From assembly GCA_913061435.1 (NCBI GenBank), contig CAJXUK010000011.1, positions 1 through 64,000 of the forward strand: DNA of 64,000 nt, read 5' to 3'. Source of the stretch: an uncultured Thalassolituus sp. (lineage in GTDB: Bacteria; Pseudomonadota; Gammaproteobacteria; Pseudomonadales; Oceanobacteraceae). Positions 34,365-37,660 of the stretch are shown in pieces (the stretch's first letter is position 1; each line of letters opens with the position of its first letter). Below the pieces are notes generated by a model. It was not told the DNA's origin and did not search any database. It saw only the letters and a list, made by a program, of their open reading frames with translations. The position numbers and the translations under genes were made by a program.

Positions 34365-34580
34365 ATGAATCAGATATTTATTAACAAAGAACCGGTCGAG
34401 CTTTATAAAATATTAAAGTTTGAGGGCCTACGCGCCAGTGGTGCAGAAGCGAAAGCGGCCATTGCTGATGGTGAAGTTAAATTAAACGGTGAGTTTGAAA
34501 CCCAAAAGCGTAAGCAAATTGTTGCGGGTGATGTCATTGAATTTGAAGGAGAGTCGTATCAGGTTCAGCTAGAAGGTTAA
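34365..34580 (+). CDS. ybcJ: Small S4-domain RNA-binding protein (YbcJ family)
   Basis: A 71-residue protein made almost entirely of an S4 RNA-binding domain (about 12-65): ILKFEGLRASGAEAKAAIADGEVKLNGE, then KIVAGD-type IVAGDVIEF. YbcJ of Escherichia coli is a small RNA-binding protein with a possible ribosome link. The gene is convergent with the DUF2431 gene, which may also act on RNA; that pairing is only suggestive. Confidence 0.85.
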   Translation: MNQIFINKEPVELYKILKFEGLRASGAEAKAAIADGEVKLNGEFETQKRKQIVAGDVIEFEGESYQVQLEG

Positions 34581-34607: not shown

Positions 34608-35486
34608 TTAGGTTTCGATTGCACGAGCGTATTGATCTTCATATTGTTGCATGAGTTGATGTTTTTTTGATCGCTCATGCAGTGATTTATCGCCAGCGGA
34701 AACGAAGGGTCCAGCTTTGCAAAACTCGCAGTATTTTTCTCCTTGATGGCTCTTGGCGATCAACCCCCTGCTTTTGATAATGTCGTGTTTATTCCCTGTC
34801 TTTGAGCTCCAAATATAAGTGATTCCTTGAGTATCCTTTACGTGCTTATCACGATCAACATTTCTGATTTTATAACCTGGAAAATCGCTAATATTGAAGG
34901 GCATTGAGCCTAGATATTTTATGTGTTTTAAGCCTCGGTTGAGGCTATTTTCAATATTCCATTCGCTGTAGGGTTTAACGTCTTTTGAGGTTATGTAACA
35001 CAGTTGTTGGCCGTTTGGATCAAGAAAAAATTCATTGCAATGTATTAAAAATTTTCGTAACAGTAAGCGGTTGAGCGTGTTAATGCTGATGTCGCCCATG
35101 TTGTGGAAGTAGTTTGGATCTGAAAATGCGGGTACAAGTGGAAATTGGAAAATAACCAAATCGAATGAGTGTTTCTTAAGATGATTCCATGTATCTGGAT
35201 TGGTCACATCAAAACCAAATAGAACTTGCTGGTTCGCATTAGTATTGAGTTGTCCGATTGAGTGATATTGGTATTTATCTGCAAGGGTTTGCTGGCTATC
35301 AAATACCGTGGCTGTGAGCTGCGCAGGTTTGAAACGATTCCAAAGTGAGGCAGAGAAAGAAAGATCGCCGTCGCCAATGGTGAGAATTCGCCAGTTGGGT
35401 TTTAAAAACATGGGGGCTAAGGTATCGCTCGAAGAGTTTGAATCTTGGTAAATATAGGTTTTGCGTATCGCTGCTGGGTATGGCAT
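34608..35486 (-). CDS. DUF2431 (BMT5-like) putative RNA methyltransferase with C-terminal zinc finger
   Basis: The main domain (about 33-235) matches the Rossmann-fold methyltransferase family known from yeast Bmt5, with the glycine loop ILTIGDGDLSFSASLW at 34-49. The C-terminus carries C253-x2-C256-x13-H270-x5-H276, a U1/matrin-type zinc-finger pattern usual for RNA-binding proteins. The ATG at 35486 lies in the arm of a hairpin element. An internal ATG at 35411 (MFLKPNW, 267 residues) may be the true start. Substrate unknown; rRNA is a guess from the family. Confidence 0.7.
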   Translation of the reverse strand: MPYPAAIRKTYIYQDSNSSSDTLAPMFLKPNWRILTIGDGDLSFSASLWNRFKPAQLTATVFDSQQTLADKYQYHSIGQLNTNANQQVLFGFDVTNPDTWNHLKKHSFDLVIFQFPLVPAFSDPNYFHNMGDISINTLNRLLLRKFLIHCNEFFLDPNGQQLCYITSKDVKPYSEWNIENSLNRGLKHIKYLGSMPFNISDFPGYKIRNVDRDKHVKDTQGITYIWSSKTGNKHDIIKSRGLIAKSHQGEKYCEFCKAGPFVSAGDKSLHERSKKHQLMQQYEDQYARAIET

Positions 35487-35568
35487 TTGAGGCCGTTCCT
35501 CCCCATGGATGGGGAGGAACGGCCTGCAGGGACCGTATTCACGGCGTGCTGTGGAATGTCATACCCAG
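35474..35568. repeat. Nested inverted-repeat element
   Basis: A perfect 17-base inverted repeat with a 2-base centre (35490-35525; arms begin AGGCCGTTCC) sits inside outer arms CTGGGTATGGCATT (35474-35487) and AATGTCATACCCAG (35555-35568) that match at 13 of 14 positions. Between them lies a GC-richer stretch with CTGCAGGGACCG. It resembles a REP- or MITE-like hairpin element. The outer left arm overlaps the first codons of the DUF2431 gene. Confidence 0.75.
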
Positions 35569-35605
35569 TAGCAGTAATAAGCAAAACTGGCTTCTAAATA
35601 GAGGC

Positions 35606-36955: not shown

Positions 36956-37660
36956 CTAAAATGGGCAGGGTACTTTGGCCAGTATCCGCTCACCTGTAAC
37001 AGGATGATCAAACTCCAGAGTGGTGGCGTGAAGCATTAAGCGCTCAGCCATTTGCTCGCTGTTATCAATCTCCCCCAGCTGCTTATCACTGTATAAATCA
37101 CAACCTATAATGGCATGCCCCATTTGCTGGCTATGAATTCTTAATTGGTGGGTACGGCCAGTAAAAGGTCGTAAAATAACCCGGCTAACTGGAAAAGCAT
37201 GCCCCTTAAAAAAAAACTCTTCGTGTCTTTGCAGTTGATATTCGGTTAATGCCGACTTACCGTGTTGATGGCATATTTTTTGGTATGGAAACTCTCCTTT
37301 AGCGATGGGAAGATTAATGCTCCCTTGACCTCTGCTTAACTTGCCTGCTAACAACGCAGTATAGGTTTTTTGTACGTTGCGTTCGCTAAATTGGCGGTTA
37401 AGTAAGCGATTACTTGTTTTATTTAGCGCGAGTACCATGATGCCAGAAGTACCTAAATCAAGGCGATGAATCATTAATGCTGTTGGAAACAATTGACGAA
37501 TTCGGTAGTGAACAGAATCTAAATTAGCAGGGTGTTTACCCGATAAACTGAGTAATTTTGTCGGTTTATTAATCAGCAAAATGTCTTCATCGTAAAACAA
37601 AATATCTATTTCTTGCAGACAGGGCGGGACGATAAAATTATCAGCTGAGGTATTCGTCAA
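36956..37660 (-). CDS. RluA-family pseudouridine synthase
   Basis: Converts uridine to pseudouridine in RNA. The catalytic Asp is in MIHRLDLGTSGIMVLAL, and the family's RPFTGRTHQLRIHSQQMGHAIIGCDLY is present. There is no N-terminal S4 domain, which resembles the RluA/TruC-like shorter members. The start is TTG at 37660, with GAGTGAG about seven bases before it. The gene overlaps nothing but lies 10 bases after the DUF3108 gene, so the two are probably co-transcribed. rRNA or tRNA target is not known. Confidence 0.87.
   Translation of the reverse strand: MTNTSADNFIVPPCLQEIDILFYDEDILLINKPTKLLSLSGKHPANLDSVHYRIRQLFPTALMIHRLDLGTSGIMVLALNKTSNRLLNRQFSERNVQKTYTALLAGKLSRGQGSINLPIAKGEFPYQKICHQHGKSALTEYQLQRHEEFFFKGHAFPVSRVILRPFTGRTHQLRIHSQQMGHAIIGCDLYSDKQLGEIDNSEQMAERLMLHATTLEFDHPVTGERILAKVPCPF

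Follow-up and report, generated by a model that had tools for sequence, protein, structure and literature searches.

The fingered gene, its start codon and its surroundings

The window, by which we mean the whole 64,000-nucleotide stretch of DNA that was analysed, carries on its reverse strand an open reading frame of 292 aa (34608-35486) for a BMT5-like protein with a C-terminal zinc-finger pattern. The source genome (2.94 Mb in 62 contigs, 94% complete) encodes a single copy of this fingered BMT5-like gene. An earlier reading of the sequence without database searches, referred to below as the sequence-only reading, had taken the whole frame as the gene. The frame is indeed present, but the true start is probably the ATG at 35411 and not the one at 35486, giving a coding sequence of 267 aa plus stop (34608-35411, reverse strand) with a start position that is conserved in relatives. 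We place the start there because of three observations. In the Oleispira loci L003, L004 and L005 (genes that also appear as L009, L008 and L114), just two codons separate a stop codon from the Met equivalent to window residue 26. At the internal start, 96 of the 106 distinct family proteins have Met, five have Val and five another residue, one of these last five being cut by a contig end. Finally, the upstream ATG of the window (35484-35486) lies inside an 18-nt inverted-repeat arm (35470-35487). The 25-codon 5' extension (35412-35486, reverse strand) is thus probably outside the conserved protein. Given an SD-like GGAGG that is seen by eye before the upstream ATG, a longer form starting at 35486 may nevertheless be made in the window strain.

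The repeat arm is part of a 103-bp element (35470-35572) located between an aminotransferase-like gene and the BMT5-like gene. Its ends are imperfect 18-nt inverted arms (35470-35487 and 35555-35572, 89% complementary), which enclose a second, perfect inverted repeat of 17 nt around a 2-nt loop (35490-35525). The element occurs once in the source genome, and three short pieces of it had no exact match in the other Oleispira loci compared.

The small S4 gene described in the sequence-only reading as facing the BMT5-like gene was found in that arrangement, at 34365-34580 on the forward strand. It encodes a YbcJ-like S4 RNA-binding protein (PF13275, S4_2, E 1.2e-22), with a match to the NCBIfam YbcJ model that is below cut-off. 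The functional hint drawn from this neighbour did not hold up. An S4 gene is present within four genes of the fingered gene in only 4 of 60 loci, all of them from Oleispira, and its position is a matter of genus-level synteny with no functional link indicated. When the neighbours within four genes were clustered over 60 and then 107 loci, no constant gene partner emerged and only lineage-level synteny was seen; a functional module of the gene with its neighbours was rejected, since no cluster was general over either set. Upstream genes are shared by the six Oleispira loci, a DUF3429 gene and a small hypothetical protein precede the fingered gene in four annotated Pseudoalteromonas loci, and in another set of loci the fingered gene comes after rimM, trmD and rplS, as read by eye. 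Two genes upstream, at 36956-37660 of the window, a gene was assigned by eye to RluA-like pseudouridine synthases, and likewise in the Oleispira loci. Outside Oleispira, the RluA-like cluster is near the fingered gene in L073 and L076, which is a weak hint.

Family and predicted fold of the main domain

The BMT5-like family PF10354 matches the window protein over its full length (model positions 1-167 of 168) with an E-value of 8.4e-33 and a score of 114.5 bits (cut-off 24.7), in agreement with the initial description of a BMT5-like (DUF2431) protein. This domain, encoded at 34863-35384 on the reverse strand, is the sole Pfam domain above cut-off in the window protein, and PF10354 is matched by all 57 family members that were scanned. 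Up to E 10, the window protein has no match among NCBIfam models; in the 57 members, a putative-methyltransferase model turned up most often, in six. A sequence search of the PDB with the window protein gave nothing up to E 10.

An AlphaFold model was obtained from an 11-protein alignment (pLDDT 78.5, pTM 0.82). Its main domain matches 457 PDB chains at E 0.001 or better, and SAM-binding methyltransferases and aminopropyltransferases prevail among the best 50 of these 457. The top match by VIA is a spermine synthase (Z 13.1, rmsd 3.4, 170 residues aligned). Of the 1000 chains in the VIA list, 861 reach at least Z 8; fibrillarin, TrmN, RlmLK and MnmM are included, at most 2 Z units below the top. 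Whether the main domain would show a SAM-methyltransferase fold was one of two points set beforehand on which the sequence-only reading could fail, and both the model and the PDB fold matches predict a class I fold of this type. The predicted fold leaves the substrate unnamed.

All rows of a 57-row alignment share the glycine loop G13-D-G-D16 and D38, and nearly all share D68. The segments of the model with the lowest confidence (92-97, 144-147 and 184-193) coincide with conserved stretches, namely the one just after FQFP, SKDVKPY and NVDRDKHVKD. Conserved segments that are poorly ordered in a model resemble substrate loops, and these might be such loops. A leucine directly follows the FxFP motif in all 106 family proteins (FQFPL in 102, FNHPL in three, FNFPL in one), whereas the same position is H, N, H, Y and M in five other bacterial BMT5-like proteins. 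This difference suggests that the chemistry or the target of the fingered family may not be the same, although the position is not known to define BMT5-like proteins. The glycine loop and an FxFP-like motif are common to the fingered family and those five proteins, while the VKPYxxW and RNVDR blocks are peculiar to the fingered family. A PYxxW stretch similar to the VKPYxxW of the family is presumably present in eukaryotic BMT5-like members.

The C-terminal finger and its pairing with the domain

The tail of the window protein reads C-EF-C-x13-H-x5-H, as the sequence-only reading had stated, with C228, C231, H245 and H251 numbered from the internal start (34659-34730, reverse strand). Conservation of these Cys and His residues in homologues was the second point set beforehand. 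The family set comprised 59 relatives besides the window protein and 47 more, minus one identical pair, for 106 distinct proteins with the window included. The pattern C-x2-C-x13-H-x5-H is found with identical spacing in 105 of the 106, and within the first set (the 59 relatives and the window) pairwise identity is as low as 32%. No row of the 57-row alignment departs from the four finger residues or from G234. The linker that precedes the finger varies in both sequence and length. Because the four residues and their spacing are kept in 105 proteins while the linker varies, the finger is not a product of chance. In the sole exception, L165 (1-816), the gene extends to base 1 of its contig. The C-terminal end of this protein is swapped at the contig edge for unrelated-looking sequence, which may be due to an assembly chimera or to a real rearrangement.

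A profile of the tail, applied at E 0.001 to 196 genomes, matched 42 genomes once each. All 42 matches are directly downstream of the BMT5-like domain of the same genome, and the finger was found in no other gene across the 196 genomes. At the sensitivity of the profile, the finger was never seen without the domain and, L165 aside, the domain of the fingered family was never seen without the finger. G459, a 471-aa frame with a weak match to the domain, stands outside these pairing counts. The possibility that the finger is a module reused in other genes was rejected, since within the 196 genomes the tail profile matched only BMT5-like genes.

The sequence-only reading had assigned the finger to the U1/matrin type. 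The window protein matches no Pfam finger family at the curated cut-off (7.4 bits against 22.6 for zf-C2H2_jaz). Taken alone, it matches Zn_ribbon_11 at E 0.013 versus E 7 for zf-C2H2_jaz, the former match spanning 14 residues only. Over the 57 members, the Pfam finger families found were zf-C2H2_jaz ('double-stranded RNA-binding') in 27, with a best E-value of 6.4e-4, zf-C2H2_2 in 14, zf-met in eight and zf-DBF in seven; other Pfam names appear as weak matches in one or two members. With a profile of 11 tails, the best PDB match is the RNA binding protein ZFa (1zu1), which is weak at E 0.027, followed by splicing factor 3A subunit 2 (E 3.1) and a TNF-receptor family chain (E 3.2). Unrelated chains (HIT protein, RasGRP2, TNF-receptor) were also returned by the PDB profile searches. 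A model of the tail only (pLDDT 83.8, pTM 0.59) has two helices and zero strands. Foldseek of this model against 350,542 PDB chains gave seven matches up to E 10, all weak (E 2.5-9.9), and all seven are U1 or U11 snRNP, prespliceosome or E-complex entries. VIA-align of the same model reached Z 4.6 at best, with an rmsd of 2.0 over 44 residues. Because these individually weak lines from Pfam, PDB sequences and fold agree, assignment of the finger to the U1/matrin/jaz kind is supported. The family finger resembles U1C/matrin/jaz fingers (U1 snRNP, ZFa, SF3A2) in its C-x2-C ... H-x5-H arrangement and has its best sequence and fold matches, weak as they are, among them. It differs in sitting within a bacterial enzyme, and its second Cys and first His are 13 residues apart, compared to what we take to be a usual 12 in U1-type fingers.

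Occurrence, selection and history

The named carriers of the gene are Oleispira, Colwellia, Pseudocolwellia and Pseudoalteromonas, with patchy occurrence, and the nearest relatives among named records are from Oleispira. Several of the carriers are marine bacteria. PF10354 was found in six of 55 relatives, all six from the genus of the window (one of 29 genera), and every one of the six genomes searched in this genus has the gene. In the class survey, 5 of 369 genomes have a PF10354 match, four of them above cut-off, and the fingered kind is represented by the window's own only. A below-cut-off match from this survey, L021, was set aside; inspection by eye suggests a restriction methylase subunit. 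The phylum survey gave matches in 9 of 299 genomes, with four above cut-off and the five below it left out of the counts; fingered proteins are those of the window and of G810. Around Pseudoalteromonas denitrificans, PF10354 is present in 49 of 246 genomes of its family, where the 48 proteins read are all fingered, and in 54 of 394 genomes of its order. Fourteen named control genomes have no PF10354 match. Beyond the phylum, coverage was by a pattern scan alone, which detects close relatives. It should be mentioned that the counts exclude the duplicates L003, L004, L006, L007, L113, L115, L116 and L117, as well as G954, which has the same coordinates as G810.

Thirteen plasmid records have a match, all of them Pseudoalteromonas replicons of a non-mobilizable type that range in size from 65 kb to 1.3 Mb. 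The analysis took in five of these 13, and the other eight are excluded from the counts. The protein is annotated as 'class I SAM-dependent methyltransferase' in nine of these records, as 'DUF2431 domain-containing' in one and as 'Rossmann-like fold-containing' in one, and has no annotation in two. Phage records gave no match to the family, none of 33 viral-contig stretches matching a pattern encodes a relative, and neither PADLOC nor PHROGs yielded a family up to E 1. An origin in phage, defence or mobile elements was rejected on these grounds, together with the non-mobilizable type of the plasmid carriers.

Comparison of the window gene to five Oleispira relatives gave dN values of 0.14-0.19 and dS values of 1.25, 1.94 and 2.11, with two saturated. 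Purifying selection acts on the gene in Oleispira. In a quick tree with its root placed on four finger-less proteins, which are on very long branches, the six Oleispira rows are grouped (SH-aLRT 100) and placed inside the rest, and many deeper forks are open. The history may be one of gain by transfer or of repeated loss, two courses that are indistinguishable here.

Proposed function and competing explanations

On balance, we favour the view that the protein is an RNA methyltransferase, probably acting on uridine, which docks on RNA through its finger. The enzyme would be a stand-alone SAM-dependent RNA methyltransferase of the BMT5 type. Its N-terminal Rossmann-like domain would bind SAM through the GDGDLSFS loop and the conserved acidic residues D38 and D68. 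The conserved loops at FQFPLxP, SKDVKPY and RNVDRDKxxK would probably shut over the target base, and the C-terminal CCHH finger could hold one zinc ion and dock on helical or duplex RNA. The likeliest product would be a methylated uridine in rRNA or tRNA. Modification at N3, and of rRNA in particular, is suggested by analogy with yeast Bmt5, and we hold these two points with less confidence than the proposal as a whole. Weighing against the proposal are the family's own Leu after FxFP, the absence of any general neighbour that would connect the gene to translation, the weakness of each finger match and the place of polyamine synthases at the head of the structure lists.

Yeast BMT5 and BMT6 are described as methylating U2634 and U2843 of 25S rRNA to m3U (PMC7694415), and Bmt5 is paired with m3U2634 in a table of PMC5199042. 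Only one m3U site is known in E. coli according to PMC7694415, and RsmE makes it. The fingered family is like the yeast Bmt5 and Bmt6 25S rRNA uridine-N3 methyltransferases in its full-length match to PF10354, the family of Bmt5, and in the SAM-methyltransferase fold predicted here. It differs from them in being bacterial and, as judged from bacterial sequences only, in its constant CCHH finger and in the Leu after FxFP. If the m3U reading is right, the position modified would be the same N3 as that of RsmE (m3U in 16S rRNA) and RlmH (m3-pseudouridine in 23S rRNA), which belong to other Pfam families, PF04452 and PF02590, respectively, the latter being what we take as the RlmH family. A role as a stand-in for RsmE or RlmH was rejected because the source genome encodes a member of each of the two families.

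The strict retention of domain and finger together is the reason for regarding the gene as a candidate for an RNA modification new to bacteria. A more specific suggestion, which we put forward only tentatively, is that a eukaryote-like rRNA uridine methyltransferase domain and a spliceosomal-type duplex-RNA finger form a gammaproteobacterial enzyme for an uncatalogued bacterial RNA modification, be it another m3U or some other mark on uridine, and that it may have been acquired by inter-domain transfer. In the open-licence literature, titles on DUF2431 included none about bacteria, nothing linked a U1-type zinc finger to a bacterial methyltransferase, and a search for matrin-type zinc fingers with bacterial context led to trypanosome work only. 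The same literature returned no class I SAM-dependent methyltransferase with a zinc finger, rRNA and Pseudoalteromonas. Through this gene, genera with representatives in culture, Pseudoalteromonas and Colwellia among them, provide a testable candidate for one more bacterial RNA modification. A finger type familiar from the RNA machinery of eukaryotes is, moreover, a constant part of a bacterial enzyme here. Such an enzyme would show how fingers guide methyltransferases onto RNA helices.

The leading alternative, which we consider unlikely though worth keeping in view, is a SAM-dependent RNA-modifying enzyme that acts elsewhere than on uridine N3, at another base or ribose position, or by aminocarboxypropyl or aminopropyl transfer. 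Spermine and spermidine synthases rank first in the two structure lists and RNA methyltransferases follow at a distance of 1 to 2 Z units, so the fold alone does not indicate RNA methyl transfer; the family-specific Leu after FxFP and the invariant loops of the family's own also speak for this alternative. However, SAM-binding Rossmann folds commonly come out nearly tied, the Pfam match over the whole domain is BMT5-like, and a polyamine-synthase family appears in only one of the 57 Pfam scans, at E 0.024. We find it less probable still that the protein is a methyltransferase of a non-RNA target (protein, DNA or a small molecule) with a finger for contacting protein or DNA. C2H2 fingers can bind protein or DNA, and no neighbour generally ties the gene to RNA, but the nearest matches of the finger are RNA-binding or snRNP proteins and the yeast BMT5 protein is an rRNA methyltransferase. 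Least probable is that the protein has kept the fold but lost catalysis and serves in RNA binding or ribosome assembly, as the residue after FxFP, different from that of the other aligned bacterial BMT5-like proteins, might suggest; against this stand the invariant G13-D-G-D16 and D38 and the nearly invariant D68.

Bacterial BMT5-like proteins without the finger

The five other bacterial BMT5-like proteins are like the fingered family in matching PF10354 above cut-off and unlike it in having no CCHH pattern and different neighbours. Three of them (L110, L112 and L019) come from the class of the window, and two (L082 and L083) from its phylum. In L110, L112 and L019, from gammaproteobacterial genomes of 1.1-1.9 Mb, the BMT5-like domain is found within longer frames of 348, 701 and 818 aa, respectively, and no second domain was detected by Pfam up to E 0.01 in L110 and L112. 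In L082 (4024-5401) and L083 (2099-3472), the finger-less BMT5-like gene is located directly before a gene for an AlkB-type 2OG-Fe(II) oxygenase (PF13532) on the same strand. This neighbour suggests nucleic-acid modification for the wider BMT5-like family, and the two genes are a candidate nucleic-acid modification pair.
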